NCBI RefSeq assembly: GCF_900107255.1 | Contig: NZ_FNPH01000004.1 | Span: forward strand, 496,001-560,000 | Direction of reading: 5' to 3' | DNA length: 64,000 nt | From: Micromonospora pattaloongensis | Lineage (GTDB): Bacteria > Actinomycetota > Actinomycetes > Mycobacteriales > Micromonosporaceae | Shown: in pieces, positions 39,645 through 56,033 of the stretch | Layout of the letters: each line of letters begins with the position of its first letter | How positions within the stretch are numbered: position 1 is the first letter of the stretch | Program-made: the position numbers and the translations under genes | Notes under the pieces: model-generated | What the model was told of the DNA's origin: nothing | The model's database searches: none | What the model saw: the letters and a program-made list of their open reading frames with translations, nothing else

Positions 39645-41147
39645 CTACACCACGATGCCGAGCCGGGCGATCGGCTCCAGCAGCTCCTCCTCCTCGTAGT
39701 CGAGGTGCGACAGCAGCATCTCCGACAGCCGGTCGAACTCCGCGCGCACCGCCGTCAGCCGGTCCGGGTCGTCGATCATCGCGACGAGCGCCTCGTCGAG
39801 GCGGGTCAGCACGGCGGCGATCACCTCGTGCTCCTCCCCAAGCCGGTCCAGCACCGGTCCGAGCTCCGGGTCGCCGTCACGCAGGTCGGGGAACATCCGC
39901 TGATCCTCGATCGTGTGGTGCACCGTCACGACGCGGCAGTAGGCGGCGCAGAACGCCCCGAGCGACCAGTAGTTCTGCCGCATCGACATCCGGTTGATCA
40001 GCGACCGCGCCGCGGCCGGGTCGCTGTGCCCGCTGGCGACCTGCTCGATCACCCCGCCGAGCTGCTCCAGCTCGGAGCGGAGGTTGTTGTGGAAGTAGAC
40101 CAGGGCGTCCGCGCCGGACTGTCCGGTCTCGGTCCGCCGCGCCGCGGGACGCTTCGGCGCGCGCGGCCGGCTCGCCTCGTCGAGGTCGATCGCGTGTCCC
40201 GTGGTGCGCTCGGAGGGCGCCAGGTCGGCCTGCTCCGCGCGCTGCGGCACGGCCGTCCCGCGCGCGGCCGCGACGTTCTCCCGTACGCCGGGCGCCACCT
40301 CCTCGGCGAAGCGCCGCAGATCCGACTCGCCGGCCTGGCCCGGCGCGAGGATGAACCCGCTGATGCCCTGGGACAGCGCCAGCTCCGTCAGCTGCTCGAT
40401 CCAGAGCTTCGGCGCGCCCTGCAGGAAGCCGCCCCCGCGGCTGGTGAAGCTGCCGGCGACGTTGTACCAGCGGCGGATCTCTCCCGGGTGCCGCCCGGCC
40501 GCCGACGCGGCCCGATCCATGATCTTGGCGAGCTCGCGGATCTGCTCCGGGGAGGCGTACATCGAGCTCGGGATCCAGCCGTCCGCCAGCCGGCCGGTCA
40601 GCCCCAGCAGCCGCGGCTTGTACGCGCCGATCCAGATGCCGATCGGATGCGCCGGCGGCGGCCCCGGCTCGGCGCCGTCGACCCAGTGATAGCGCCCGCG
40701 CAGCCGCACCGGCCCGCCGCCCGGGTTCCACAGCGCCCGCATCACCGCGATCGCCTCTTCGAGCGCGTCGATCGACTCGCCCGGCGTGCGCTCCGGTCCG
40801 CCCATCGCCGCGATCCCCTTCGGGAAAGCGCCGACCCCGAGCCCCATCTCGACCCGCCCGTCGCTGAGCACGTCGAGCGTGGCCGCGCTGCGGGCCAGCA
40901 CCGCCGGCTGGCGCAGCGGCACGCTGATCACGTCGGGGAAGAGCGTCAGGCGCCGCGTCTGGGCGGCCAGCGACGACAGGAACGTCCAGGTGTCGAAGAA
41001 GCCCGCCTGGTACGGGTGGTCCTGCACGCCGAGGATGTCCAGCCCGACCGTGTCGGCGGTGCGGGCGAGCGAGACCGTCCGGTGGGGGTTGCCCGCGTCG
41101 GGGGTGACGAACGCCCCGAACCGCAGCGGGTGGCCGTAGTCGGTCAT
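39645..41147 (-). CDS. F420-type LLM oxidoreductase fused to a hemerythrin domain
   Basis: 500 aa. Residues about 1-300 form a luciferase-like (F420-dependent) TIM barrel (GLDILGVQDHPYQ; DGRVEMGLGVGAFPKG). A charged linker (about 305-350) leads to a C-terminal hemerythrin HHE domain with histidines in YFHNNLRSE, TVHHTIEDQRMFP, EEHEVI and LSHLDYEEEEL. This couples a hydride-transfer module to a diiron, O2- or NO-reactive one. The start overlaps the stop of the GST gene (ATGA). Confidence 0.87.
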   Translation of the reverse strand: MTDYGHPLRFGAFVTPDAGNPHRTVSLARTADTVGLDILGVQDHPYQAGFFDTWTFLSSLAAQTRRLTLFPDVISVPLRQPAVLARSAATLDVLSDGRVEMGLGVGAFPKGIAAMGGPERTPGESIDALEEAIAVMRALWNPGGGPVRLRGRYHWVDGAEPGPPPAHPIGIWIGAYKPRLLGLTGRLADGWIPSSMYASPEQIRELAKIMDRAASAAGRHPGEIRRWYNVAGSFTSRGGGFLQGAPKLWIEQLTELALSQGISGFILAPGQAGESDLRRFAEEVAPGVRENVAAARGTAVPQRAEQADLAPSERTTGHAIDLDEASRPRAPKRPAARRTETGQSGADALVYFHNNLRSELEQLGGVIEQVASGHSDPAAARSLINRMSMRQNYWSLGAFCAAYCRVVTVHHTIEDQRMFPDLRDGDPELGPVLDRLGEEHEVIAAVLTRLDEALVAMIDDPDRLTAVRAEFDRLSEMLLSHLDYEEEELLEPIARLGIVV

Positions 41148-42160
41148 GCGGCGGTGCTCCCGGCGACCTCGAGCGGGGTGACGGTCTCGTCAGCCGGCGG
41201 CGGCCCCGGCGGGGTGCCGTCGCCGAACGGGCGGCCGCCGAGCGTCTCCCGGCCGTGCGGGGTGAGCCACTGGCGCAGATCCGGGCCGACCGCCACGATG
41301 CCGGTTGGGTTGATGGTGCGGTGCACCTGGTAGTAGTGCCGCTTGATGTGGTCGAAGTCCACGGTGTCCCCGAAGCCGGGCGTCTGGTAAAGATCCCGGG
41401 CGTACGCCCAGAGCGCCGGCATCTCGGCCAGCTTGCGGATGTTGCACTTGAAGTGCCCGTGATAGACGGCGTCGAAGCGCACCAGCGTGGTGAAGAGCCG
41501 GATATCGGCCTCGGTGATCGTGTCCCCGACCAGGTAGCGCTGGCGCTGCAGCCGCCGTTCCAGCTCGTCGAGGCGCGCGAACAGCGGGTAGACCGCCTTC
41601 TCGTACGCCGGCTGCGACTCGGCGAACCCGGCCCGGTAGACGCCGTTGTTCACGTCCCGGAACACGTCTTCGTTGATCGCGTCGATCTCGGCGCGCAGGT
41701 GCTCGGGGTAGAGGTCGGGGGCGCCGGGACGGTGCAGCGCCGTCCACTCCGTCTCCAGGTTCAGCGTGATCTCCGGGTAGTCGTTGGTCACGAGCTTGCC
41801 GCTCGGCACGTCCACGATCACCGGCACGCTGACCCCGCCGTCGTAGTCCGGGTCCCGCGCCAGGTACGCCTCGGAGAGGAAGCGGATGCCGAGCACGGGA
41901 TCGCGGTCGTCGGGGTCGAGGGTGAAGCGCCAGCTCCGCTCGTCCTGGATCGGGTCGGTGACCGCGAGCGAGAGCGCGGACTCCAGCCCCAGCAGCCGGC
42001 GTACGACCAGCGCGCGACTCGCCCAGGGGCAGGCGAGGCTGACGACCAGGCGGTAGCGGCCGGGCTCGACCGGCCAGCCCGACGAGCCGTCGGCGGTGAT
42101 CCGGTCGGTGAAGGCGTTCGGTGAGCGGACGTACTCGTCGCTCTTCTCGGTGTCGGTCAT
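41144..42160 (-). CDS. Glutathione S-transferase-fold reductase (Xi class, Ecm4/YqjG type)
   Basis: 338 aa. The C44-P-W motif (ACPWASRAL) and the C-terminal helical domain (YLVGDTITEADIRLFTTLVRFD) identify the glutathionyl-hydroquinone reductase family, which removes thiol adducts from quinones through the cysteine. Since mshC shows a mycothiol-based organism, the natural thiol is probably mycothiol. First gene of an operon with the LLM-hemerythrin and 2H genes, the former overlapping by 4 bp. GAGGAG precedes the ATG at 42160. Confidence 0.9.
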   Translation of the reverse strand: MTDTEKSDEYVRSPNAFTDRITADGSSGWPVEPGRYRLVVSLACPWASRALVVRRLLGLESALSLAVTDPIQDERSWRFTLDPDDRDPVLGIRFLSEAYLARDPDYDGGVSVPVIVDVPSGKLVTNDYPEITLNLETEWTALHRPGAPDLYPEHLRAEIDAINEDVFRDVNNGVYRAGFAESQPAYEKAVYPLFARLDELERRLQRQRYLVGDTITEADIRLFTTLVRFDAVYHGHFKCNIRKLAEMPALWAYARDLYQTPGFGDTVDFDHIKRHYYQVHRTINPTGIVAVGPDLRQWLTPHGRETLGGRPFGDGTPPGPPPADETVTPLEVAGSTAA

Positions 42161-42378
42161 CTGCGCGCGCTCCTCGCAACTCGTCGCGGCCCGGTGCTTC
42201 CCCACCGATCTTGCCCGAGGACCCGGACGTTCACGCCCGGGCGGCACACTGACCGCGGCATGTCGCGGTGTGCCAGCTTCGGCGCCGCCCGGAACGCCCG
42301 CCGGCGCTCACGGCGTCGAAACGGGTGATCCCAGTGGAAATTGAAGCACCGGGAACTGAGGAAGCACCGGGAGTAGCC

Positions 42379-42948
42379 ATGTCAGACCGCCGTAGTTCCG
42401 CCGGCGGGGTCGCGATGCTGTTGCTCGCCGCCGTCCTCGCCACCACCGGGTGCGGGGGCGGCGCCACCGTGGGCGGCGGGTCGGACCCCGATGCGTCCCC
42501 CGAGGAGCGTGTGACCGTGAACCCCTCCACCGCCACCACCATCGAGTGCGGGCAGCCGTTCCGACCGCCGGTCGACGTCGCGCTGACCATGACCGTCCAG
42601 TTCCCCACCGCCGTGTCGGCCGGCGTCGACAGCGTCGGCGGCACGGTCGAGGTCACGAGCCGCGAGGCGGTGCGGGGCGTCGGAACCCCGCGGGCCGGCG
42701 GATTCCTGGTCCGCGACGGTCGCGTCGTGACCGTTCCGCCGGCACAGGACGCGGCCGGGGTGCGGTGGGAGCTCGCCCCGGGTGAGCCGCTGCGGCTGCC
42801 CGGCGACGTTTCGCTGGTGTCGTGCGCGGCCGGCGGCAACACGGTCGGACCGGGCACGTACGAGCTGTACAGCCGGGTGGTGTTCACCCCCGACGGCGGG
42901 TCCACCGTGGAGTCGTTCGGCGGGCCGTGGCCGATCGAGGTGCGCTGA
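42379..42948 (+). CDS. Probable secreted lipoprotein of unknown function
   Basis: 189 aa. A hydrophobic signal (about 11-25) ends in a lipobox-like T-T-G-C, followed by a Gly/Ser-rich spacer; the rest is beta-rich with one Cys pair (C near 57 and C near 153). The ATG at 42379 is chosen for GGGAG 6 bp before it; the frame is open further upstream. A 12-bp direct repeat (GAAGCACCGGGA) lies at 42343 and 42361 in the leader. No family recognised. Confidence 0.65.
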   Translation: MSDRRSSAGGVAMLLLAAVLATTGCGGGATVGGGSDPDASPEERVTVNPSTATTIECGQPFRPPVDVALTMTVQFPTAVSAGVDSVGGTVEVTSREAVRGVGTPRAGGFLVRDGRVVTVPPAQDAAGVRWELAPGEPLRLPGDVSLVSCAAGGNTVGPGTYELYSRVVFTPDGGSTVESFGGPWPIEVR

Positions 42949-42956
42949 GACGCCGA

Positions 42957-42989
42957 CGGCCGGCGACCGCGGGGCACGGTCGCCGGCCG
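42957..42989. terminator. Bidirectional terminator hairpin
   Basis: CGGCCGGCGACCG (42957-42969) pairs perfectly with CGGTCGCCGGCCG (42977-42989); 7-nt loop, followed by CTCTTCC. It separates the lipoprotein gene from the convergent protease gene. Confidence 0.8.
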
Positions 42990-43009
42990 CTCTTCCGCGG
43001 ACGGTTCGG

Positions 43010-44050
43010 TCAGCCGGTCACGATGCTGACGCCGAGGTTCGCGGAGATGACGGTCCACGGCTGGGCGTAGCCGGTGACGCCGTTGGTGGCGATGACGTTG
43101 CCGCGGATCCAGGCCCCGGAGGCGTCCTTGGCGTAGAAGGAGCCGCCCGAGTCACCGGGCTGGATCATGGTCCCGCCCGTGAACGCGATCACCGGCGACT
43201 TGCAGCCGGTCGCCGTACACACCTGCGCGGTGATGCTGTTGGCGGTGTGCCCGCAGTTCTCGCCGGTGGTCCGGCCGCTGTGGCAGTAGTCGGTGTAGCC
43301 GACGTATGCGGTGCCGGCGGCGACCACCGGGATGCTGCTGGTGCTGGTCACGCCGCCGGTGAAGACGCGGCCCGAGTACGACCGGCCACCGATCAGCTCG
43401 AAGTCCATCGCGTCCCCGGTGACGCTGGCCAGCCGCCGGTCGGAGACCGTGCCGTAGTTGTTCGCGCCGGACTCGGTGGACACGCTGGTGCCGTTGGCCC
43501 AGCAGTGGCCCGCGGTGACCGAGAACCGGGTGCCGGCGGCGTTCTGCACGGCGTAGCCGGAGGAGCAGATCGCGCCGCCGGCCGTGATGCCGCCGCCACC
43601 GTAGTACGGCTGGATGTCGTCCCGCCGGTGCCACGCGTCGGTCGCGCTGGCGCGCCGCACCTGAACCCCGGTCGCGGCCTGCCGCTGCGCCGTGGCCGCC
43701 CCGGACAGGTCGGTCAACGCGGAGACGACGCCCGCCGGCGCGTCGGTCTCCAGGACGATGTTCCCGGTCGCCGGGTCCAGGTAGCTGCCGAACGTGTACC
43801 TGGTGCCGTTCGTCGCGACGTAGCGCGCGACCCGCGTCTGGATCGTCGCCAGCGCCGCGGTGGCGGCCGACGAGGCGGCCCGCACGCCCGCCGCCCGGTC
43901 CGGGGCGCGGCTCTCGTCGACCTTAGCGGCCGCGCGCGCAGGCTCCTTGTCCTTGCCCGGCGCCGCCTGCGCCGGCAGAGCCCCGAGAACCGTCAGCGCG
44001 GCGGTCGTGGCGACGACCGCGCCGACGAACGTCCTTTTCGTCTTGAGCAT
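43010..44050 (-). CDS. Secreted trypsin-like serine protease (S1, alpha-lytic/streptogrisin type)
   Basis: 346 aa. Signal peptide (about 1-29, cleaving at AQA-A), a propeptide of about 110 residues, then the catalytic domain with H182 (TAGHC), D216 (AMDFEL) and S301 (GDSGGS). Cysteines C162/C183, C256/C266 and C278/C283 are spaced for disulfides. An extracellular protease probably made as a proenzyme. GGAAGGGA lies 5 bp ahead of the ATG at 44050. Confidence 0.92.
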   Translation of the reverse strand: MLKTKRTFVGAVVATTAALTVLGALPAQAAPGKDKEPARAAAKVDESRAPDRAAGVRAASSAATAALATIQTRVARYVATNGTRYTFGSYLDPATGNIVLETDAPAGVVSALTDLSGAATAQRQAATGVQVRRASATDAWHRRDDIQPYYGGGGITAGGAICSSGYAVQNAAGTRFSVTAGHCWANGTSVSTESGANNYGTVSDRRLASVTGDAMDFELIGGRSYSGRVFTGGVTSTSSIPVVAAGTAYVGYTDYCHSGRTTGENCGHTANSITAQVCTATGCKSPVIAFTGGTMIQPGDSGGSFYAKDASGAWIRGNVIATNGVTGYAQPWTVISANLGVSIVTG

Positions 44051-44516
44051 GTCGATCCCTTCCGTACGACTCCACGGCACGATGCCGCGGCCTCAGCACA
44101 TGAGAAATCGACGGGGAGAAAAGGCATAGACTGTTGTCCGCGTTGCGACATGACGCGCCGGAAGAATGTCACTCGGTGTGCCATGATTTGTGGGCGCTCC
44201 CAGGGATTTCCGCAACAGTCGGCCCAGACCTTCGAAATCGCGCCCAGCGTGACGAGGCGCAGGTATCAGACATCCGTTCGCGATCCGCCGCGCGCCGGAC
44301 CCGGAGTTTCGCATGTGTCCGACGTTTTCGTCCCGCCACCACATGCGACGGAGCCGCCGCCCGGGGGCGAGTATTTTTCGCTCATGACAGCGTCGTGACA
44401 AATTGCAGATAGATTGCTCCGGCTGCTCACCACGAATAGCCGGTGTTTGTCCGGATAACCGGCAGCGTATCGTCGATCCGCACGACATGCACGGTGCGGA
44501 TGTCCCCGGTCATTCG
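44051..44516. other. 466-bp intergenic region upstream of the protease gene
   Basis: No credible ORF. Read leftward it is the protease leader; at 44112-44125 it carries the 14-mer CGGGGAGAAAAGGC, which recurs at the same relative place in the leader of the second C39 peptidase gene (50151-50164). A TATGCC box just upstream of that motif could be a -10 box without a good -35. The right end holds CCGGCT/AGCCGG inverted repeats near 44420-44445. No riboswitch could be matched. Confidence 0.4.
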
Positions 44517-45575
44517 CTACCGGAGCCGCCCCAGCAGCGCCTCGACGACCCGCTCGGTGTCGGCGGAGCCGCCGAGGTCGCGGGTCCGGGTGGTCGGCTC
44601 GCGCAGGCAGGCCTCGACCGCGGCGGTCACGTCGGCGGCGGCCCGCGGGTGCCCGAGGTGGTCGAGCATCATCGCGGCCGACCAGACCGCGCCGAGCGGG
44701 TTGGCCACGCCCCGGCCGGCGATGTCCGGCGCGGAGCCGTGCACCGGCTCGAACATCGACGGGTACGTTCGGGTGGGGTCGATGTTGCCCGACGGCGCGA
44801 TGCCGATGCTGCCGGCCACCGCGGCGGCCAGGTCACTGAGGATGTCGCCGAAGAGGTTGGACGCGACGATGACGTCGAACCGGCCGGGCTGCAGCACCAG
44901 TTTGGCGGCGAGCGCGTCGATGTGCTCGGCGTCCCAGCGCACGTCGGGGTGCGCGGCGGCGCGCTCGGCGACGACCTCGTCCCAGAACGGCATGGTGTGC
45001 ACGATCCCGTTGGACTTGGTGGCGGAGGTGACGTACGCGCGGCGGGTGCGGGCGAGTGCGAAGGCGTAGTCGGCGATCCGGCTCACCCCGGCCCGGGTGA
45101 AGACCGCCTCCTGCACCGCCACCTCGTCGGGCTGGCCGCGGTTGAGCCGCCCGCCGATTTCGCTGTACTCGCCCTCGACGTTCTCGCGCACCACCACGAA
45201 GTCGACGGCGCCGGGCTCCGCGCCCCGCACCGGGCTGGGCACGCCCTCGAAGACCCGGATCGGCCGCAGGTTGACGTACTCCCGGAAGGTCCGGCGGATC
45301 GGGATCAGCAGCCCCCAGAGCGAGACGTGGTCGGGCACGCCGGGCCAGCCGACCGCGCCGAGCAGGATCACGTCGCTGTCGCGGAGCCGGTCGAGGCCGT
45401 CGGCCGGCATCATCGCGCCCTCGCGCGCGTAGCGCTGGCACGACCAGTCGTACTCGTCGTACCGGAAGGCCAGGCCGTGCCGCGCGGCGACGGCGTCGAG
45501 CACGCGGCGCGCGGCGGCGGTGACCTCGACGCCGATGCCGTCGCCGGGAATCACCGCGATGCGCTGGGCGGTCAT
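44517..45575 (-). CDS. Tartrate/D-malate dehydrogenase (isocitrate dehydrogenase superfamily)
   Basis: 352 aa. The sequence shows the decarboxylating beta-hydroxyacid dehydrogenase fold (VIPGDGIGVEV; ENVEGEYSEIGG; ASNLFGDILSDLAAAVAGSIG) with the tartrate-dehydrogenase-type segment YDWSCQRYAREGAMMP. It would oxidise D-malate or tartrate using NAD. The ATG overlaps the transporter stop by one base (TGATG), so both are co-translated: uptake, then oxidation. Confidence 0.88.
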   Translation of the reverse strand: MTAQRIAVIPGDGIGVEVTAAARRVLDAVAARHGLAFRYDEYDWSCQRYAREGAMMPADGLDRLRDSDVILLGAVGWPGVPDHVSLWGLLIPIRRTFREYVNLRPIRVFEGVPSPVRGAEPGAVDFVVVRENVEGEYSEIGGRLNRGQPDEVAVQEAVFTRAGVSRIADYAFALARTRRAYVTSATKSNGIVHTMPFWDEVVAERAAAHPDVRWDAEHIDALAAKLVLQPGRFDVIVASNLFGDILSDLAAAVAGSIGIAPSGNIDPTRTYPSMFEPVHGSAPDIAGRGVANPLGAVWSAAMMLDHLGHPRAAADVTAAVEACLREPTTRTRDLGGSADTERVVEALLGRLR

Positions 45576-47191
45576 CAGCGCCCGAGTCCGACCGCCGCGA
45601 TCATGAGCGGCAGGAGCAGCAGGATGAGGATCGCGCCCAGGACGTCGAAGGAGACGCCGGACCGGATCATCTTGGTGATCGGCACCACCCCCGAACCGTA
45701 TACGACCGCGTTCTGCGGGGTGGAGACCGGCAGCATGAAGCCGAACGAGGCCGCGAACGTGGCGGCCAGCGCCGGCACCAGCGGATCGACCCCGGCCGCG
45801 GCCGCGATCGGGATGATGATCGGTACGACCACCGACGCCGACGCCGTGTTGCTGGTGGTCTCGGAGACGAGGATCGCGAGCAGCACCGCGAAGGCGGTGA
45901 TGGCGAAGACGCTGGTCAGCCCGAGCACGTTCGCGCTGCCGGTGCCGATGGTTTCGGCGAGCCCGCTGCGCTGCAGCAGCGCGCCGAAGATCACGCCGGT
46001 GCCGAAGAGGACGACGGTGCCCCAGTCGATGCGGGCGGCGTCGCTCCAGCGCAGGGTGTACTCGCGGGTGCGCCAGTCGGTGGGCAGCAGGAAGAGCAGG
46101 GCGGCGCCGAGCACCGCGACGGTCCCCTCGTTGAGCCGTCCGCTGACGGTGTCGTAGATGGCCGAGTCGCTGCCGGCGACCAGCGCCACGATGCCCGGGG
46201 TGATCCACAGGGTCACGGTGACGAAGAACGCGATGAGGGTGTTCTTCTCCGCGCGCGACAGCGGACCGAGCCGGGCCCGCTCGGCGGCGACGTACTCGGC
46301 GACCCCGTCGATGCGCCGGATCTCGGGCTTGTTGAGCAGCAGCAGGATCGCGGCGAGGACGATGAACATCAGCAGGCAGACCGGGAAGGCGGTGGCCATC
46401 CATTCGGCGAACGAGATCCGCCGCCCGGTGGCCTCCTCGATCAGCGCGCGGCCGATCAGGTTGGGTGGCGTCCCGACGGGGGTGAGCAGTCCGCCGACGC
46501 TGGCGCCGTACGCCAGCATCAGCATCAGCGCCACCCCGACGCGCAGCCGGGTCGGGTCGAAATCGGCTGCGGCGATCCCCCGGTCCTGCATGAGCTTGGC
46601 GATGACCGCGAGGATGCCCAGCGCGGTCGGCAGCAGCATCGCCACGGTCGCGGTGTTGGAGACGAACGCCGACAGCGCGCAGGTGATGACGCCGAAGGCG
46701 ACGATGACGCGGCCGGTGGTGCGGCCGACGCCGGGCAACGACAGGATGCGGAACGCGAACCGCCGGGCGACTCCGTGCTTGAGCATCGCCTGGGCGAGGA
46801 TGAACGCGCCGATGAAGGTGAAGACCGTCGAGGAGCCGAAGGGTTCGAGGACGTCGGCGGCGGGCGCCACGCCGAGCACGACGATCACCCCGACGCCGAT
46901 CAGCCCGCCGATCGGGATCGGCACCGGCTCGGTGACCCACAGGACGATCACGCCGAGCAGCACCCCGGCGAGGGTCTGCTGGCTGGGCCGCATGTCCAGC
47001 GGCAGGGCCAGGAAGACGATGGTGACCAGCGGCGCCAGCCAGAGGCCGATGGTCCGCCGGGAACGCTCGAAGCGTTCCTCCGTCGGGGAGAGCCGCTGCT
47101 CCCCCAGGCTGCGGTACGTGCCGCCGCCGAGCAGCGCCTCGTCGACGTCGGTCGGGCGGGCGGGGTGGGACGGGGTGTCGGTGGAGACCAT
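45575..47191 (-). CDS. SLC13/DASS-family dicarboxylate permease
   Basis: 538 aa, about 11-12 membrane helices. Two S-N-T signature motifs of the INDY family are visible (FVSNTATVAM and TTSNTASASV), which bind sodium and the carboxylate. The N-terminal 45 residues are cytosolic and polar. Coupled to the tartrate/malate dehydrogenase, it most likely imports tartrate, malate or a similar diacid. AAGGAG precedes the ATG. Confidence 0.92.
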   Translation of the reverse strand: MVSTDTPSHPARPTDVDEALLGGGTYRSLGEQRLSPTEERFERSRRTIGLWLAPLVTIVFLALPLDMRPSQQTLAGVLLGVIVLWVTEPVPIPIGGLIGVGVIVVLGVAPAADVLEPFGSSTVFTFIGAFILAQAMLKHGVARRFAFRILSLPGVGRTTGRVIVAFGVITCALSAFVSNTATVAMLLPTALGILAVIAKLMQDRGIAAADFDPTRLRVGVALMLMLAYGASVGGLLTPVGTPPNLIGRALIEEATGRRISFAEWMATAFPVCLLMFIVLAAILLLLNKPEIRRIDGVAEYVAAERARLGPLSRAEKNTLIAFFVTVTLWITPGIVALVAGSDSAIYDTVSGRLNEGTVAVLGAALLFLLPTDWRTREYTLRWSDAARIDWGTVVLFGTGVIFGALLQRSGLAETIGTGSANVLGLTSVFAITAFAVLLAILVSETTSNTASASVVVPIIIPIAAAAGVDPLVPALAATFAASFGFMLPVSTPQNAVVYGSGVVPITKMIRSGVSFDVLGAILILLLLPLMIAAVGLGR

Positions 47192-47452
47192 TGCCCTACT
47201 CCTTGCGGGTCGCCGCGGGTGGACGGGGAACCAGCCGGAACGCTGTGGCGTGGGTCACATTCAGATGGGCATCGATCGTAACGGTTGGCGGCGTCGATGG
47301 GGGGATCACGGGGGTCCGCTGTACTGACGCGGGTCACGCCGCACCGGAGATGGCACGCCCGAATCGATGCGCTTCAACATGGAACGTCGTTAGACAACTC
47401 GTCCCGCCATCAACCCGTCGTGTCCGCCCAAAGCCCCCACGGTGAGCCGTCC
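47192..47452. other. Divergent intergenic region
   Basis: 261 bp between the permease (-) and the pentapeptide protein (+). A TACGAT box on the minus strand (47275-47280) is a possible -10 box. No operator or small ORF is convincing. Confidence 0.35.
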
Positions 47453-48130
47453 ATGCAGACCAGGAAGATCGGCGAAGTACAGATCCTGACTCCCCACTTC
47501 ACGCCGGGGGTCCTCGTCCCGGTCACGCGGGCGCCGGCCGACGATCTGACCGAGGCGTACATCGCCGACCAGGCGTGGCCGCGCGCCCACTTCGTCGATT
47601 TCAGCCTGAGCCGAAGTCAGGTCGAGCGCGTCGACCTCGCCGAGACGCACTGGCGCGGCGTCGCGCTGTACGGCTGCCGGCTGGAGCGGGTCAACCTGAC
47701 CGGCGCCACGCTGACCGGGGTGACGATGGAGCGGTGCCATCTGGTCGACTGTCAACTGACCGCCGTGCAACTCGCCGGCACCGCGCTGAAGAACGTCATC
47801 CTCGAGGACTGCCGCCTGGATCACGCGACCGTGCTGCACGCCCGGATCACCGGGCCGACCGCGCTCACCCAGTGCGACCTCAGCTATTCGCTGCTGATCC
47901 AGAGCCGACTCACCGGACTGGTCGCCCGGTCGTGCCGGCTGACCGGCCTGGAGCTCGACGACTGCGACATCACCGGCGCCGACCTGCGCGGCAACGATCT
48001 GCGGCCCGTCGCGCGGGGGCTGCTCAGCCTGCGCGGCGCCGTCGTCGAGCAGTCGCAGATCGGCGATCTCGCCGCGCTCGCCGTCCGGGAGCTGCAACTC
48101 CGGGTGCGGGCGGACGCGGACAGCCCGTGA
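47453..48130 (+). CDS. Pentapeptide-repeat protein
   Basis: 225 aa. From about residue 45 to 190 the chain follows A/C-[DN]-[LF]-x-x periodicity (VDLAETHWRGVALYGCRLERVNLTGATLTG), which folds as a right-handed quadrilateral beta helix. Several turns carry Cys or Thr at the first position instead of Ala. Members include DNA mimics such as MfpA that protect gyrase, but most have no known role. The ATG at 47453 has only a weak ribosome site. Confidence 0.82.
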   Translation: MQTRKIGEVQILTPHFTPGVLVPVTRAPADDLTEAYIADQAWPRAHFVDFSLSRSQVERVDLAETHWRGVALYGCRLERVNLTGATLTGVTMERCHLVDCQLTAVQLAGTALKNVILEDCRLDHATVLHARITGPTALTQCDLSYSLLIQSRLTGLVARSCRLTGLELDDCDITGADLRGNDLRPVARGLLSLRGAVVEQSQIGDLAALAVRELQLRVRADADSP

Positions 48131-48141
48131 CGCGGATACGA

Positions 48142-48174
48142 CGAAGGGCCAGCTCGAGGTGAGCTGGCCCTTCG
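48142..48174. terminator. Strong bidirectional terminator
   Basis: CGAAGGGCCAGCTC (48142-48155) pairs perfectly with 48161-48174 around a 5-nt loop, between the pentapeptide gene and the convergent C39 gene. Confidence 0.85.
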
Positions 48175-48222
48175 CGGATCGATCCGGTGTCACCGATCGC
48201 CCGTGGGCTCCGGAGTCGGCAC

Positions 48223-48942
48223 TCAGGCCGAGTAACCCCGGGTGGCCATCCAGTTGGCCAGGTCGATCGTGGTCATCTTGTAGTGCACGGCGCCCTGCGG
48301 GTTCGCCGGGTCGGCGATCTCCACCGTCCGGCCCTGGTCGCTGTAGCCGACCACGGTCAGGTAGTGGCCGCCGGGGAAGGAATGGGCGACACCGTCGGTG
48401 TCGTACGCGGTGCCGGCGATGTTCGCCACCACCGGGCGCCCGTCGCTCAGCGCGCGGACGATGTCGGCCTGGAGCTGGTCCATCTTGGCCGGCGTCACGG
48501 CCTCGCCCATCGACGTGGTCTTGTACGCCTCCCCACCGCGCACCTGGTTCAGCACCTTGGTGATCTCCACCGCGGAGTTGGTGCCGGCCTCGGTGGTGCC
48601 GAGCTTCGCGGCGATCTCGTCCTGGCTCAGATCGTGACCGCTCGCGCTCAGCGCGATCCGGGTCGCGGCCGGGCCGCAGTAGTAGAAGTTCGGCTGCAGC
48701 TGGTAGTCATGCTTGACGTCGGCGTTCGCCGGCTTCGACGCGATGTCGTCCAGCGGCTTGGTCGCCGGGGCCTGCGCCGCGGCCTGGGCCACGACCTGCG
48801 TGGTCGGCGCGTTCTGCGCGGCGGTGGCGGTCACGGCCGGGCCGGCGAAGGCGCCACCGACGAGCGCGAGACCCGCGATACCGAGCACAGCCTTACGGTG
48901 AGAAGTCTGGAAAATACGCGAAAGCTTCAGGGTCGTGTTCAC
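48223..48942 (-). CDS. Secreted C39-type cysteine peptidase, copy 1
   Basis: 239 aa. A signal peptide (about 1-42) and an Ala/Thr-rich spacer lead to a papain-like C39-type domain: catalytic C89 in YYCGPAA, H193 in GGHYLTV and D211 in DPAN. No ABC transporter is fused, so it is not a bacteriocin exporter; it is a free secreted peptidase. The GTG start is set by AAAGG 8 bp upstream. A paralogue lies immediately upstream at 49347. Two SigR-like promoters sit 150-240 bp ahead. Confidence 0.85.
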   Translation of the reverse strand: MNTTLKLSRIFQTSHRKAVLGIAGLALVGGAFAGPAVTATAAQNAPTTQVVAQAAAQAPATKPLDDIASKPANADVKHDYQLQPNFYYCGPAATRIALSASGHDLSQDEIAAKLGTTEAGTNSAVEITKVLNQVRGGEAYKTTSMGEAVTPAKMDQLQADIVRALSDGRPVVANIAGTAYDTDGVAHSFPGGHYLTVVGYSDQGRTVEIADPANPQGAVHYKMTTIDLANWMATRGYSA

Positions 48943-49097
48943 GAGGGGTGCCTTTCTGATAAGGGGAACACGGTAAGAAACCGCCGTGCGCCTCAAGACA
49001 TAGAGCGCCCCGGAATGAATACGGCCGGGGGGTTGAAGCCGCGGTAGAAGACGCTCGCGGCCCAAGCCCGAATGTTTGCCGTTCAGGCTTGCAGGAG

Positions 49098-49127
49098 ATA
49101 TAACAAGTGCGGTCCGTCCGGCATTCC
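49098..49127 (-). promoter_or_regulatory. SigR-like promoter A (GGAAT-N18-GTT)
   Basis: On the minus strand GGAAT (49127-49123), 18 bp, GTTATAT (49104-49098). About 160 bp ahead of the first C39 start. The SigR consensus of Streptomyces is GGAAT-N18-GTT. Confidence 0.65.
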
Positions 49128-49179
49128 GATCGGGGCCCGCGGGGTGAGCTGAAACGTTTACCACTCAGGCTCACGGGAG

Positions 49180-49209
49180 ATATAACGGCCCGGCGCCGGC
49201 GCACATTCC
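49180..49209 (-). promoter_or_regulatory. SigR-like promoter B (GGAAT-N18-GTT)
   Basis: GGAAT (49209-49205), 18 bp, GTTATAT (49186-49180), 82 bp upstream of promoter A and alike for about 20 bp beyond the -10 element, so the two probably arose by duplication. Confidence 0.65.
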
Positions 49210-49346
49210 GGCCGATGGCCGGGCCGTCTGTTCTTCGCTTGGGGAATTCCGGCGCACACGCGCCGAGACGGGCCGGACGGGCACGGACACGCCGAAACGG
49301 ATGTTCGACGCGCCCGCGCCGTCACCGGCGCTCACCGGACGCCGAC

Positions 49347-50078
49347 TCACGCGGCGTAGCCGCGGGTGGCGATCCAGTTCGCCAGGGTGTCGGTCGTCAT
49401 CTTGTAGGTGACGGCGCCGGCCGGGTTCGCCGGATCGGCGATCTCGACGGTGTTGCCCTTGTCGCTGTAGCCCACGACGGTCAGGTAGTGGCCGCCCTCG
49501 AACGAGTGGCTACCGCCCTCGATGTCCGTCGCGGTGCCCGCGATGTTCGCGACGACCGCGCGGCCACCGTCGACCGCACGCACGACGTCGGCCTTCAGCT
49601 TGTCGACCTCGGCCGGCTTCGCCGTCGGACCCGGGATCGTCGTCATCTTGTACGTGTCGCCACCGAGGACGCCGTTCAGCACCCGGGTGATGTCCTCAGC
49701 CGAGTTGGTGCCGTCGGTGGTGGTGCCGAGCTTCGCCGCGATCGCGTCCATGTCCATGGCGTGACCGTCGGCGCTCAGCGCGATCCGGGTCGCGGCCGGG
49801 CCGCAGTAGTAGTAGTTGGGCTGTAGCTGGTGGTCGTGCGGCAGCGCCTTCGCCGGCGCGGCGTTGACCGCGAGCTCCGGCTTGGCCTCGGGGGCCTTCG
49901 GCGCCGCGACCGCGGCCTGCGTCGCCACGTGCGTGCCGGCCGGCGCGGCGTGCGCGGCCGAGACCGCGGGGCCGGCGACCGCGCCGCCCGCGAGCGCGAG
50001 ACCGGCGGCGGCCAGGACAGCCTTACGAGCAGAACTGTGAGCGATGGCGGGCAGCCATCGACCGAAAATCGTATTCAC
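49347..50078 (-). CDS. Secreted C39-type cysteine peptidase, copy 2
   Basis: 243 aa, clear paralogue of the protein at 48223 (shared QLQPN-x-YYCGPAATRIALSA and GGHYLTVVGYS). Signal peptide about 1-44; catalytic C92, H197 and D215. GTG start with GGAAGGG upstream. Both copies have all catalytic residues. Substrate unknown. Confidence 0.85.
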   Translation of the reverse strand: MNTIFGRWLPAIAHSSARKAVLAAAGLALAGGAVAGPAVSAAHAAPAGTHVATQAAVAAPKAPEAKPELAVNAAPAKALPHDHQLQPNYYYCGPAATRIALSADGHAMDMDAIAAKLGTTTDGTNSAEDITRVLNGVLGGDTYKMTTIPGPTAKPAEVDKLKADVVRAVDGGRAVVANIAGTATDIEGGSHSFEGGHYLTVVGYSDKGNTVEIADPANPAGAVTYKMTTDTLANWIATRGYAA

Positions 50079-50157
50079 GATGGAAACCCTTCCGTTTCGA
50101 GGAAAATCCGCGCGCGAGTCGCGCTGCGGGAAGACGCACCCGGAAAACGCCGGGGAG

Positions 50158-50181
50158 AAAAGGCGCCGCGATACCGCGGCG
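50158..50181 (-). promoter_or_regulatory. Terminator-like hairpin in the leader of C39 copy 2
   Basis: On the minus strand CGCCGCG (50181-50175), 4-nt loop, CGCGGCG (50170-50164), then CCTTTT. A compact stem with a T run, about 80 bp before the GTG and 50 bp after the promoter. Its place suggests attenuation or message protection. Confidence 0.5.
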
Positions 50182-50225
50182 AAGAAGAATGGCGCTCGAG
50201 CATCGGTTGCTCAGGCGTACAGAGA

Positions 50226-50255
50226 ATGTAACCGAGCCGGGGCGCGAGACATTCC
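50226..50255 (-). promoter_or_regulatory. SigR-like promoter C (GGAAT-N18-GTT)
   Basis: GGAAT (50255-50251), 18 bp, GTTACAT (50232-50226), about 150 bp ahead of the second C39 start. Like promoters A and B it is followed after about ten bases by GCCTGA. Confidence 0.65.
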
Positions 50256-50472
50256 AAAAAAGGGGGCGGCCAGCGGTTGTGCGCGCTAAGCTGCGGGCCG
50301 CGAGCGGGCGGACGCGGCAAACCGGACAGCCGGCACCATCAGGAACCGACATTCCGGACCAGGCACTCCCCGAACCGGATCCACCCCTGGGAACAGCTCA
50401 ACCCGCGCGAGGGGGCGCAGCCCGGACGTCGGGTCGCACGGCGGCCGGATCGCGGGACGCGCCCCCGCGGCG
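50256..50472. other. Intergenic region between GNAT gene and C39 promoter
   Basis: About 220 bp, no ORF of note. It contains GGGGGCGC (50411-50418) / GCGCCCCC (50459-50466) with an inner CCCG/CGGG hairpin, a possible terminator of the GNAT gene. Confidence 0.4.
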
Positions 50473-51078
50473 TCAGACGGCGCGCGGATCGCGCCACATG
50501 GGCCACAGCGGCGGCCCGTCGAACGGCAGGTGGAACGGCGCCGCGGAGCGGTAGCCGTGCCGCAGGTAGAGCCGGCGGTTGTCGCCGTTACTGGCCTCGA
50601 GGTAGGCGGGAATGCCGGCCCGGTCCAGCGCGGCGTGCTGGTGGCGCAGCAACGCCGCGCCCACCCCGCGGTTCTGCCGCGGCGGCGCGACCGCGAGGTA
50701 CGCCAGATAGTGATGCGGGACGGTCGGATGGTGGTCGGCGAACGCGGCCGCCAGCGCGGCGAACCGGTCCGCGAACGGGGCACACGCCCCGGGTAGCCGC
50801 TCCGGGCGCTCGGCGGATTCCGCGGGCGGCCGCATCCGCAGCTGCCACAGCGCGACCGCGCTCTGGTCGGTGGCGAGGTGCACGTAGCCGCCGCGCAGCG
50901 CGCGCTCCACCTCCTGCCGGAAGAACGCGAGGTAGGCGTCGCGGCGTCGACGCGGGTCCGGCACCAGCCAGTCGGCGACCGGCCCGGTCAGGAACGCCTC
51001 GGCGAGCAGCGCGGTGATCACGTCGGTGTCGGCGGTCGTGCCGGTGCGGATCGCGACCGCCGGTCGGGTTCGGGTCAT
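50473..51078 (-). CDS. GNAT-family N-acetyltransferase
   Basis: 201 aa. The acetyl-CoA motif A is visible as LAVAPPRQNRGVGAALL, and YLEASNGDNRRLYLRHGY is the usual motif B. Substrate unknown. Starts just after the APC permease gene on the same strand with a 22-bp gap, so the two may share a message. Confidence 0.88.
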   Translation of the reverse strand: MTRTRPAVAIRTGTTADTDVITALLAEAFLTGPVADWLVPDPRRRRDAYLAFFRQEVERALRGGYVHLATDQSAVALWQLRMRPPAESAERPERLPGACAPFADRFAALAAAFADHHPTVPHHYLAYLAVAPPRQNRGVGAALLRHQHAALDRAGIPAYLEASNGDNRRLYLRHGYRSAAPFHLPFDGPPLWPMWRDPRAV

Positions 51079-51100
51079 CGGGGGCCTCCCTCGGGTCGGC

Positions 51101-52624
51101 TCAGACGCGGGCGTGGCTGGCGGGTCGGGCGGCGGCGGGCACGGTGGGCGGCGGCGGCACGGTGGCGCTGGCCGCGCCCCACCCGATCGCGGCGTAGACC
51201 CGTGGCCGGGCGGCGCGCAGCAGCAGTGCCCAGCCGAGACCGAGCAGCGCGGCGACGCCGTAGCTGGCCGGGAAGAGCCACCGCAACGGCGAGGTCGGCG
51301 CGACGCCGAGCAGGACGGCGAACTCTCGGATGGTCACCACCAGCACGGTGACCAGGGCGAGCGTCGCGAGCGCCGGCGCCAGCGCGCGCCGCCACGCGGG
51401 CTCCTCGTGCGGATCCCGCGCGAAGAAACCCACGACCGCCGCGGAGGTGCCGGCCATCAGGATCAGCACGCCGAGCCCGCCGGTCACGGTGACCCAGAAG
51501 AACAGGTGCAGGATCGGGTCGAGGCCCGCCACGGCGTACCCCAGGAGCACCCCCAGCGCGAGCAGGCTCTGGGTGAGGGAGCCGAACAGCGGCGCCCCGG
51601 TGCGGGGGTTCGTCCGGCCGAGCGCGGCCGGCACGACCCGCTCCCGGCCGAGCGCGAACAGGTAACGGGCGACGGTGTTGTGGAACGCCAGCAGCGCGGC
51701 GAACAGGCTGGTGATGAAGAGCAGGTGCCCCACGTCGACGAGCGTCGGCCCGACGTGCGGCGCGACGAGGGTGAACATCAGCTCGGTGCCGTCGGCCCGG
51801 GCGGCCTCGACGATCCGGTCCGGGCCGGTCGCCACCGACATCGCCCAGGACGACAGCGCGTACAGCAGACCGGTGACGGCCACCGCGATGTACGTGGCGC
51901 GGGCGATCGTGCGCTTGGGGTCCTTAGTCTCCTCCGAGAACACGACGGTGGCCTCGAAGCCGACGAACCCGGTTATCGCGGTGACCAGCGCCGCGCCGAT
52001 GCCGGCGGCGAAGATGTGCGCGGGCGCGAGGGTGGCGAAGTCGACCACCCGGCCGGCCGGATGGGCCACCATGACCAGGTCGAAGACGACCGCCACCGCG
52101 ATCTCCAGGATCAGCATGACCGCCAGCACCCGCCCGTTGAGGTCGACCCGCAGCACGCCGAGCGTGCCGACCACGGCCCAGCCGAGCAGCGCGCACGCCC
52201 ACCAGGGCACGGCCCAGCCGAGTCGCCCGGCGAGGTAGTCGGCGAGCACCGCGCCGAACCCGCCGTACAGGCCGATCTGCATGGCGTTGTAGGCGAGCAG
52301 GGCCACGAACGCGGCGCTCACCCCGGCCGGCCGGCCCAACCCGTGGCTGACGTACGTGTAGAAGGCGCCTGCGTTGACGACGTGCCGGGACATCGCGACG
52401 TAGCCGACCGCGAACAGGGCCAGGATGACCGCGACGGCCAGGTAGGACACGGGGATGCCGACGATGCCGGTCACCGCGTACCCGGTGGTGGCGCCGCCGG
52501 CGACGACGGTGAGCGGCGCCGCCGCCGCCATCACGAAGAACACCACGCTGGGGATGCCCAGCCGGTTGCTCGCCAGCACCGCGGAGACGGCGCCGGCACG
52601 GGGATTCGGGGCAGGGGCGGACAT
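51101..52624 (-). CDS. APC-family amino-acid permease
   Basis: 507 aa, about 12-14 membrane helices. The N-terminal motif (GIPSVVFFVMAAAAPLTVVAGG), the unwound helix region and SEETKDPKRTIARATY are typical of APC-superfamily (YhjE/YveA-like) amino-acid or amine importers. GGAGG lies 8 bp ahead of the ATG at 52624. Downstream GNAT enzyme could modify the transported amine; that is inference. Confidence 0.9.
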   Translation of the reverse strand: MSAPAPNPRAGAVSAVLASNRLGIPSVVFFVMAAAAPLTVVAGGATTGYAVTGIVGIPVSYLAVAVILALFAVGYVAMSRHVVNAGAFYTYVSHGLGRPAGVSAAFVALLAYNAMQIGLYGGFGAVLADYLAGRLGWAVPWWACALLGWAVVGTLGVLRVDLNGRVLAVMLILEIAVAVVFDLVMVAHPAGRVVDFATLAPAHIFAAGIGAALVTAITGFVGFEATVVFSEETKDPKRTIARATYIAVAVTGLLYALSSWAMSVATGPDRIVEAARADGTELMFTLVAPHVGPTLVDVGHLLFITSLFAALLAFHNTVARYLFALGRERVVPAALGRTNPRTGAPLFGSLTQSLLALGVLLGYAVAGLDPILHLFFWVTVTGGLGVLILMAGTSAAVVGFFARDPHEEPAWRRALAPALATLALVTVLVVTIREFAVLLGVAPTSPLRWLFPASYGVAALLGLGWALLLRAARPRVYAAIGWGAASATVPPPPTVPAAARPASHARV

Positions 52625-52662
52625 GGCTGCGCCTCCAGGGGGGTGAGGGGACGAGGGGGGAA

Positions 52663-53289
52663 TCAGGTCCGGCTGCTGAGCACGCCGCCGCCGATGGCGA
52701 CGCCGGTCTGCACCAGCAGCTCGCGCAGTGGGGGCCACGCGGCGTCGGTGAGCTCGTGCAGGTAGTCGCGCGCCGCGCGGGGCGCCCCCGCCAGCACGTG
52801 TGCGTCCAGGCCGGTCTGCACGACCAGGCCGGCGAGCGCGACCTCCTCGGGGGTCAGCTCCTCGGCACGTTTGATCTTTGTGGCGAGTTTGATCCAGCAC
52901 CAGGCCGCGACGTTCATGTCGGCCGGCACGTAGACGGTCGCGGTGCGCCACATCCGGCGCGACTCCTCGCGGCGGACCAGTCCCTGTCGCCACAGCCGTT
53001 GGCCGACCCGCTCGCCGGCGTCGTGCGACAGGAAGTCGAGCCAGATCCGCACCCCGGTGTGCTCGGCTTCGGTGACGAGGTGGTCGAGCACGGTGTGGGC
53101 GAGCGGATCGGGCGGCGGGGTGCGGTCGACGACGGCCAGCCGGCCGCGGTCGATCAGGATCCGGCGCGCGTAGAGCAGCTCGGCGAGCAGGCCGGCGGCC
53201 AGGCCGTAGGCCATCGCCCGGGCGTGCAGCCGGGGCCGGCCGGTCACGTCGTGGTGAGCGGCGAGGTAGAACCTGTCAGCCAGGCGCAC
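52663..53289 (-). CDS. GPP34 (GOLPH3-like) domain protein
   Basis: 208 aa. It fits the bacterial GPP34/Vps74-like family (VRLADRFYLAAHHD at the start, helical core, WPPLRELLVQTGVAIGGG at the end). In eukaryotes this fold binds phosphatidylinositol-4-phosphate; actinobacteria carry many copies with no settled role. The GTG at 53289 is used because of GGGAGG and homologous starts; an ATG at 53325 is possible. Confidence 0.8.
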   Translation of the reverse strand: MRLADRFYLAAHHDVTGRPRLHARAMAYGLAAGLLAELLYARRILIDRGRLAVVDRTPPPDPLAHTVLDHLVTEAEHTGVRIWLDFLSHDAGERVGQRLWRQGLVRREESRRMWRTATVYVPADMNVAAWCWIKLATKIKRAEELTPEEVALAGLVVQTGLDAHVLAGAPRAARDYLHELTDAAWPPLRELLVQTGVAIGGGVLSSRT

Positions 53290-53374
53290 GGGCGGGCCTC
53301 CCGGCCGCGGATGGCATGACGACATGTCGCGTCTCCAACGGCGGATCGGGCCGCGGCCGCCGATGCCCCCGACG

Positions 53375-53412
53375 CCCGCGTACGGTCAACAACGTCGCTG
53401 ACCGTACGCGGG
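53375..53412 (-). terminator. Terminator after the glycoside hydrolase gene
   Basis: Arms of 14 bp (53375-53388 and 53399-53412) are complementary around a 10-nt loop. It lies 87 bp after the stop of the leftward hydrolase and ahead of the GPP34 gene. Confidence 0.7.
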
Positions 53413-53498
53413 GAATCACGCTATTGCTGTGACGAGACGGTTACAGGTTTCGATACGCAGCCGGCCGTCCACCGTGGAGCGCCGGCGTCGGCGCGCGC

Positions 53499-55757
53499 TC
53501 AGCGCAGCCGATCCTGCGTCCGCACCACGGACAGCGAGTACGGCGGCAGCGTGATCGTCGCGTCGCGCCCCGGCGCCACCACCGACCTCGCCGGCGGATC
53601 GTTGCGCCCGGGGCGGCCCCCGTTGCGCTTCTCCGGGATCCACCGCCACTGCTCCCCCGAGTACTGGAAGAGGTCGAGGGCGCCGGGCAGCGGCTCCCGG
53701 GCGCCGTCCCCGGTCCGCATCAGCCGGACGGTCACGGGCTTCTTCGGGTCCTTGTTGAACAGCATCACCGACAGCCGGCCGTCCGGGCGACGCACCGGAT
53801 AGGCGGTCACCTGCGGATGCCCCCCGGCGGTGCGCAGATCGCTGGTGGCGGCGAAGACGGTGTGCTCGCCGGTGCCGGGCTGCGCCCACTGCGCGTTGAC
53901 CAGCTGAGCCGCGTGGAACGTGACGATCGGCCGGATCTTGAATTCGTCGTAGAACTGGAAGAGCATCAGGTTCCCCCACGTGTCGCAGGGCTTCCCCTCC
54001 TTCTCCTGGAAGACCCAGTTCGGCTCCAGTCCGTAGAAGTAGCTGGTCTCGCCGCCGAGCGCGAGGAACTGCACGGCCGTCTCCGCGTTCACGATCGCGC
54101 CCGGCAGCTCCAACTCCACCTGCCCGGCGAACGACGAGTAGCCGTACTCCGTGATCACCTTCGGCACCTCGGGCGGCAGGCCGGCCGCCTCCTGCCGACG
54201 CATGAGCGCGGCCAGCAGCGCGGGATGCTGCGCGACGGGCCGGGCCGGGTCGGCGCAGACGTCGTCGAACGGATACCACTCGAAGGAGAAGAAGTCGAAC
54301 TCCGCCATCGCGTCGCGGGCGCGCAGATACGCCACGAAGCGCCCGGTCCACGACCGACTCGACGCGCCGGCCTCCGGCCAGGCGAACCAGTCCGGCAGCA
54401 CCGTCTGGTAGCCCGGCCCGCCGAACTCCACGTCCGGGTCGACTTTCTTCATCGCCCGCGCCATCTGCAGATACAGCGCGGCGTAATCCTCCGGCTGCGC
54501 CAACTGTCCGTCCGGCTCCTCGCCGATCTCGATCCGCTGGACCGGGAAATCCTGGTCGCGCAGGTACCGCAGCAGCGCCGCGGCGTCCTCCGGCGTCCCG
54601 TACAGCGCCGGCACCGGCACCATCATCGGCTGCCCCGCGGTCAGACCGCTGGCGTACGTGCGGGCGAAGCTGGCGTGCTCGTAGTCCGTGTCCACGTCCA
54701 CCGCGCGGTGCCACGGGTCCGTCGACGACGTGTACATGGTCGTCTGGCCCTGCGACGGCTTGTGGGTGATGTGGTCGACGAAGCCGCGGCCCCCCTCGTA
54801 GCCGATCGACAGCTCCCGCACGGCGTACCCGAGGCGGTCCCGGACGTCGGTCGAGCCGGCCGGCGCGGTGTCCGAGTCGGCCGTCATCAACACCCGGACG
54901 AACTGCGCCTTGAGCGGGGTCTGCGCCACCCGGACGGTCTGGGTGCCGCCCTGCCCGGCGTGCCGACCCGCCGGAAAGTCCTTCCAGCCCACCTTGCCCG
55001 GTTCGGCGGGATGCAGGGCGTCGGAGCCGGTCCAGTACTGGACCCGGAACCGCGTCGCGTAGGGCGTCCCCCACCGGATTGTGACCTGGTCGATCGGCAG
55101 GGCCTCGGGGAACGCCGCCAGCATCCACTGCGGATGGCGGGCGTCCGGCTCGCCGGTGAAGTGCGAGTCGAGGTAGGGGTTGCTCTTCCAGAAGGTCCGG
55201 GGGTCACCGTCGGCGAGACGCGAGTAACCGTCGTTGTTGGCCTGGTCGATGGTGTTGCCGCGACGCGGCAGGTGGTATCCGTACGAGACGCCGGGGTCGT
55301 GGTCCATCGTGGTGTCCGAGGTCCAGTAGCCCTGCCGCCGGGCGCTGTCGCTCCAGCGGCCCTGCGGGTTCCAGTGCCAGGCCTTCACGCCGAGCTCGGT
55401 GCGCAACCGGTAGCTGAGCGAGCCGAAACCGGCCGACCGCATCGCGGCGAGGTTCTCCGGGGTCCAGACCTCGTTGATCTCGCCGCCCTCGAGCCCGTCG
55501 ACCCCCGCGCCCAGCGCCGGGCTGCCGTTGAAGGTGTTGACCGGCCGGTCCAGCGCCAGCTCGACCGTCCCGTCCGGCGGCAGTCGCGGATCGGCCGGGG
55601 AGGGCGTGCCCACGTACGCGGCGGCGACCAGGACGACCCCGGCCGTCCCGGCGAGCGCCCCGACCAGGACCGGCGTCCGCCGCCATGCCGACAACCGCCG
55701 TCGCACCGTCCGCGGGCGCGTCGACCGCCCCGGGCCGGACGTCTCTTCTTCCCACAC
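53499..55757 (-). CDS. Membrane-anchored clan-A glycoside hydrolase with discoidin-like insert
   Basis: 752 aa. A basic N-terminus and one helix (about 29-49) make it a type II membrane or secreted protein. Residues about 170-320 look like an F5/8 type C (discoidin) domain. The flanking parts form a TIM barrel: the acid/base is probably E414 in IGEEPD (a variant of N-E-P) and the nucleophile E537 in VITEYGY; a C-terminal beta domain follows (about 640-752). Closest in feel to GH39/GH79-like enzymes, not certain. The GTG at 55757 is a weakly supported start; the frame extends upstream to 55910. Confidence 0.65.
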   Translation of the reverse strand: MWEEETSGPGRSTRPRTVRRRLSAWRRTPVLVGALAGTAGVVLVAAAYVGTPSPADPRLPPDGTVELALDRPVNTFNGSPALGAGVDGLEGGEINEVWTPENLAAMRSAGFGSLSYRLRTELGVKAWHWNPQGRWSDSARRQGYWTSDTTMDHDPGVSYGYHLPRRGNTIDQANNDGYSRLADGDPRTFWKSNPYLDSHFTGEPDARHPQWMLAAFPEALPIDQVTIRWGTPYATRFRVQYWTGSDALHPAEPGKVGWKDFPAGRHAGQGGTQTVRVAQTPLKAQFVRVLMTADSDTAPAGSTDVRDRLGYAVRELSIGYEGGRGFVDHITHKPSQGQTTMYTSSTDPWHRAVDVDTDYEHASFARTYASGLTAGQPMMVPVPALYGTPEDAAALLRYLRDQDFPVQRIEIGEEPDGQLAQPEDYAALYLQMARAMKKVDPDVEFGGPGYQTVLPDWFAWPEAGASSRSWTGRFVAYLRARDAMAEFDFFSFEWYPFDDVCADPARPVAQHPALLAALMRRQEAAGLPPEVPKVITEYGYSSFAGQVELELPGAIVNAETAVQFLALGGETSYFYGLEPNWVFQEKEGKPCDTWGNLMLFQFYDEFKIRPIVTFHAAQLVNAQWAQPGTGEHTVFAATSDLRTAGGHPQVTAYPVRRPDGRLSVMLFNKDPKKPVTVRLMRTGDGAREPLPGALDLFQYSGEQWRWIPEKRNGGRPGRNDPPARSVVAPGRDATITLPPYSLSVVRTQDRLR

Positions 55758-55981
55758 GGAGATTCCCCATTCAACGTTGTGAGTTCGGCGAAGCTCTTTG
55801 TCGGCCGAGCACCGCCTCCGGCGGCGACCGCGAGTCGTGGCGGTCCGCCGCCGGTGCGCATCGACGTACATCGGGTCAACGAATCGACCGCGGTCGTGCG
55901 GCGTGGCCATTTCGGTCAGACGAGACGGCCCGAACGGGTGAATGGGAGGGCCGGGCGCGGCAACGGCCCGGTAACGCAGAA
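55758..55981. other. Intergenic region upstream of the glycoside hydrolase
   Basis: About 220 bp, partly open in the hydrolase frame. No promoter could be assigned. The right end is followed by the strong terminator at 55982-56033. Confidence 0.35.
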
Positions 55982-56033
55982 CCCCGTCGATCGGGGACTG
56001 CCATCCGTGGATGGAGGTCCCCGATCGACGGGG
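55982..56033 (-). terminator. Strong terminator of the ABC operon
   Basis: Outer arms of 17 bp (55982-55998 and 56017-56033) are perfect, and inside them CCATCC (56001-56006) pairs with GGATGG (56009-56014). It follows the ATPase stop by 16 bp, closing the leftward operon. Confidence 0.88.

Follow-up and report, generated by a model that had tools for sequence, protein, structure and literature searches.

The three GGAAT-GTT sites that precede two tandem C39-type peptidase genes in Micromonospora pattaloongensis are, judging from their sequence, conserved promoters, and they probably serve an ECF sigma factor from the SigR/sigma-H class, with SigR the most likely one. Motif comparisons place this promoter-peptidase link within a larger promoter set, wider than an earlier note on the same DNA had proposed. 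In the 64,000-nucleotide stretch analysed here (the window), all three occupy the minus strand, a detail absent from that note: promoter 1 (50230..50255) upstream of peptidase A, and promoters 2 (49184..49209, distal) and 3 (49102..49127, proximal) upstream of peptidase B. Each reads GGAATG-N17-GTT, that is, exactly 18 bases from GGAAT to GTT, as the note had described. The GTT is followed by ACAT in promoter 1 (which is conserved in homologues) and by ATAT in the other two, within a shared tract AYATYTC, then GCCTGA. The two-plus-one distribution of the sites between the genes also stands, but its order is reversed in transcription: peptidase A, which comes first, has the single copy. The window holds no other GGAAT-GTT match at a spacer of 17-19; chance would give 0.29 sites over its length (maximum of 2 in 100 shuffles), and when the two upstream regions, where 3 are observed, were dinucleotide-shuffled 4000 times, at least three sites arose in 0 cases. 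A simple tandem repeat was considered and rejected: Tandem Repeats Finder detects no array at the sites, and the 18-base spacer sequence differs between the three copies, which fits promoters rather than a copied repeat.

The genes themselves encode paralogous proteins about 62-65% identical, peptidase A (49347..50078, minus strand, 243 amino acids) and peptidase B (48223..48942, minus strand, 239 amino acids, GTG start). Both match Peptidase_C39_2 (PF13529), with Pfam scores of 79 and 64.3 bits for a cut-off of 24, and both N-termini, judged by eye, resemble signal peptides, that of peptidase A being a likely one. The catalytic Cys-His-Asp and the oxyanion Gln (Q86, C92, H197 and D215 in peptidase A) are invariant in homologues (15 and 13 sequences). 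The predicted structure, with pLDDT >85 over most of the domain, resembles the C39-like peptidase 3erv, the peptidase domains of PCAT1/ComA and the pseudomurein endoisopeptidase PeiR; a cell-wall substrate is plausible. The Pfam match, the invariant Q, C, H and D and the fold are thus those of the papain-like C39/C39_2 family; unlike classical C39 bacteriocin-processing peptidases, however, these proteins are stand-alone and apparently secreted, with no fused ABC exporter.

The link between promoter and peptidase, as claimed in the note, is conserved across the Micromonosporaceae. Relatives of the C39 genes occur throughout the family (Micromonospora, Salinispora, Plantactinospora, Phytohabitans, Dactylosporangium, Rugosimonospora and Planosporangium), and a site lies no more than about 1 kb upstream in 54 of the 72 homologues scored, compared with 9 matches in 813 kb of background strand (0.011 per kb per strand). 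In the regions upstream of 87 C39 homologues we counted 118 sites with spacer 18, usually in tandem and stacked up to five deep, and at most three at any other spacing; the reverse strand of the same 87 regions gave at most 3. The -10 element is extended to GTTRYA in 103 of these 118 sites, compared with 3 of 53 background matches. Two C39 paralogues of M. pattaloongensis with different N-termini (contig positions C25:20018 and C9:445451) lack the promoter, which therefore marks a subfamily, and six genomes from other families have one strict match or none. We found no published description of this promoter-peptidase link in the part of the literature that our search covered.

A genome search for the motif, which the note had called for, returned 24 strict GGAAT-N18-GTTRYA matches in M. 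pattaloongensis and 0 in the reversed control. All 24 lie at C39 genes, at arrays of a GH184 type (with the gene itself on contig C4 only) or at rRNA leaders. In complete genomes of relatives, nearly all strict matches that we followed up precede either C39 genes or a multicopy secreted family of about 200 amino acids, whose signal peptide is of the same type. One chromosome carries 12 near-identical, scattered copies of this gene with an identical promoter (G009, L098-L105). Against the PDB, its products match the solved GH184 catalytic domains 8b2h (E 2.2e-15) and 8b2e (E 9.1e-13). They keep an ES-containing helix and a DHDS(L/I)GxFQQR segment, and the ES pair aligns in the helix of the essential Glu41 of KsGH184, a correspondence at the level of the helix. 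Compared with described GH184 muramidases (PMC10394673), the present proteins are bacterial, short and multicopy, with no SH3-like domain in the copies read. A spacer-18 site stands upstream of all 33 copies scored, most of which were fetched by the motif; two found independently (L181 and L234) carry it too. The 33 copies have 50 sites in total, 46 of them with GTTRYA.

In M. pattaloongensis, the C4 array leads into a GH184-like gene truncated by the contig end. Contigs C12, C15 and C26 (L009, L011, L012) finish in one and the same array sequence, identical over at least about 75 bases, and the gene that would follow is off the assembly; these arrays probably belong to the GH184-like family, since they have the unit GTTGTAYATGGTCCC in common. 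Our first suspicion that such contig ends were transposons was abandoned: they are rRNA leaders and a multicopy muramidase-type locus (C4).

Five contigs (C8, C13, C21, C24 and C28) terminate in a pre-16S leader, recognized by its match to the leader that precedes 16S in relatives; C21 stops slightly earlier and has the leader-proximal sequence of C24, and the 16S itself is absent from the draft assembly. Each leader carries four to six stacked GGAAT-N18-GTT sites (C8:213387-213733, C13:424-690, C21:21094-21510, C24:1232285-1232754 and C28:9986-10308). The 22 spacer-18 sites all point toward the operon, and 11 of them have GTTRYA; the opposite strand has 0, and hardly any sites occur at other spacings. 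Between the array units, palindromes of the form TCCGC-TTCG-GCGGA lie just upstream of many GGAAT boxes (for example in C21:21300-21500) and could be transcript hairpins or operators. The rRNA arrays are a feature of this genome only and not a family trait: within the approximately 1.5 kb readable upstream of 16S, we saw no array, and three isolated hits, at 26 full-length loci representing 12 other genera, plus three loci of a thirteenth. Our literature search for ECF sigma factors with rRNA promoters returned nothing on point.

The note had remarked on the cysteine in the peptidase active site. Muramidases need no cysteine, and the idea that this residue accounts for the regulation is weakened because the same promoters drive these cysteine-independent enzymes and rRNA operons. 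The note's assignment of the promoter class, in contrast, fits the published motif: the window sites have GGAAT and GTT 18 bases apart, where the SigR consensus is GGAAT-N18-19-GTT (PMC9205884), and in C. glutamicum GGAAT is the mark of exclusively sigma-H promoters, such as GGAATG-N17-GTT at mca (PMC10012870).

Is the sigma factor reading these sites SigR itself? What the genome encodes makes this the probable answer. M. pattaloongensis has its own SigR (C24:230612-231166; 354 bits for TIGR02947 SigH_actino, cut-off 252), and each of the 21 genomes tested encodes exactly one. An rsrA-like ORF (HxxxCxxC) lies downstream of sigR in these 21 genomes; M. pattaloongensis has the SigR/RsrA pair, and the promoter of this pair shows the elements of the window sites. 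In 20 of the 21, the DNA upstream of sigR has GGAAT-N18/19-GTT, usually followed by RYA: GTTRYA occurs at 12 of 20 sigR promoters, compared with the 3 of 53 in the background, and is thus common to the arrays and to sigR. The gene for ribosomal protein L31, rpmE, is a SigR target in Streptomyces, and in M. pattaloongensis it has GGAATG-N17-GTTATCC upstream (C27:76901-76926). Likewise, GGAAT-N19-GTT lies upstream of trxB and an N18 motif upstream of a group-2 sigma factor gene; hrdD and trxB are SigR targets in Streptomyces (PMC9205884). Finally, C. glutamicum sigma-H reads GGAAT via Met170, where sigma-E has Arg and needs GGAAC (PMC10012870). Among the readable ECF recognition helices of M. 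pattaloongensis, SigR alone carries Met at the equivalent position (GTVMSR), where the others have K, R or N; this comparison draws on homology models from another genus and on our own reading of the helix position.

A different ECF sigma with SigR-like -35 and -10 preferences, dedicated to envelope enzymes, is a less probable but real alternative, reminiscent of the sigma-E/sigma-H overlap in corynebacteria. It would suit the targets, which are secreted cell-wall-type enzymes with no thiol genes among them, as well as the spacing: the C39 arrays are strictly N18 (118:3), whereas 12 of 20 sigR promoters are N19 (Fisher p 6e-10), like the trxB site of M. pattaloongensis, which leaves room for a sister sigma. 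There is also a precedent in Streptomyces, where many SigR promoters stay active in a sigR mutant, implying that related ECF sigmas use them (PMC6767563). However, among 29 other sigma loci examined, GGAAT-N18-GTT was present upstream only at the group-2 sigma, so that no autoregulated candidate was seen, and the Met is absent from every other readable ECF recognition helix. The C. glutamicum sigma-E (cell-surface stress) regulon offers a close parallel, with an ECF-driven envelope response and nearly the same promoter, but sigma-E-type factors want GGAAC (PMC10012870), and the fifth -35 base is T in all three window sites as in every other site.

It is rather unlikely that several sigmas, SigR together with the housekeeping factor or other ECFs, use these promoters for a high constitutive level with a minor stress response. 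Tandem promoters usually raise output, which would suit such a use, and by eye the rRNA leaders of M. pattaloongensis also have a TTGACA/TAACGT-type sequence resembling -35 and -10 elements nearer the gene; against this, the C39 arrays have no conserved element of the sigma-70 type. A copied repeat, or chance composition, is a highly improbable origin for the sites: tandem arrays do exist, and the GH184-like copies of one genome are nearly identical even in their upstream DNA, but GGAAT, the 18-base spacing and GTTRYA are kept where spacers and flanks have diverged, orientation always matches the gene, and shuffles, spacer scans and reverse-strand controls rule out a chance origin.

The note had also pointed to a GCCTGA kept about ten bases past each GTT. 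The hexamer is indeed kept, but at about 12-14 bases, and in each window copy it forms the 5' arm of a hairpin early in the predicted transcript, on the minus strand. The hairpins are CGC.CTGAGCA / TGCTCG.GCG after promoter 1 (50193..50217, z -2.3), GTGAGC / GCTCAC after promoter 2 (49144..49174, z -2.5) and CAAGCCTGAA / TTCGGGCTTG after promoter 3 (49063..49091, z -4.1). The letters of the stems vary between copies while the pairing is kept (AAGCC/GGCTT, GTGAGC/GCTCAC, GAGCA/TGCTC). Among nine leaders, picked for looking alike, three stem pairs have changes on both sides, which is supportive at most. Compared with shuffled sequences, 85 non-redundant sites fold more strongly at offsets of 0 to +10 from the GTT (mean z about -0.8 to -0.9), while z is between +0.2 and -0.5 at most offsets in the range -60 to +50 and dips a second time at +60 (-0.83). 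No Rfam match to a known riboswitch or leader RNA was found within 40000-56000 of the window. The 5' leader of peptidase A contains, in addition, an attenuator-like element (50165-50180, minus strand), a GCCGCG-gtat-CGCGGC hairpin followed by GCCTTTT.

With SigR as the sigma factor, regulation could proceed as follows. The RsrA-like zinc anti-sigma factor encoded beside sigR would hold the single SigR inactive and release it upon thiol oxidation. Alternatively, the trigger may be an excess of SigR caused by translation-inhibiting antibiotics, under which S. coelicolor makes SigR in excess (PMC4921905). RNA polymerase would then initiate some 140-240 bases ahead of each peptidase gene, from a single promoter or two stacked ones, giving transcripts with a hairpin at or near the 5' end and, as output, secreted papain-like C39-type peptidases. 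The same promoters would serve GH184-like muramidases family-wide and, in this genome, the five rRNA-operon leaders found; the regulon would thus amount to cell-wall remodelling, coupled here to ribosome synthesis. Thiol-stress control of the peptidase genes is a reasonable inference from this arrangement.

SigR/sigma-H regulons have known roles in thiol repair, proteolysis and ribosome modulation, and rRNA is usually viewed as the work of the housekeeping sigma. Our literature search for SigR together with Micromonospora returned nothing on point. The present set shares with the SigR/RsrA regulon of Streptomyces coelicolor and the SigH regulons of Corynebacterium and Mycobacterium the GGAAT -35, the GTT -10 and a spacer of 18-19, an apparently autoregulated sigR beside rsrA and, in this genome, matching trxB and rpmE promoters. 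It differs in its targets (C39-type secreted peptidases, muramidases of the GH184-like family and, in this genome, rRNA operons) and in having promoters stacked two to six deep at spacer 18 only; among published SigR/SigH regulons, neither such targets nor such stacks are known to us. We tentatively suggest, as a possibility that falls somewhat short of probable, that in this Micromonosporaceae lineage an ECF sigma of the thiol-stress type directly drives all rRNA operons from four to six stacked promoters together with a family-wide regulon of secreted cell-wall enzymes, coupling stress directly to ribosome production, and that the promoter unit multiplies and moves between unrelated genes. 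If true, rRNA operons under stacked ECF-type promoters would depart from the housekeeping-sigma view, and the conserved peptidase/muramidase branch would connect the cell wall of a large family of antibiotic producers with redox or antibiotic stress. A stress switch may thus drive cell-wall enzymes in these bacteria and, in M. pattaloongensis, even ribosome synthesis.
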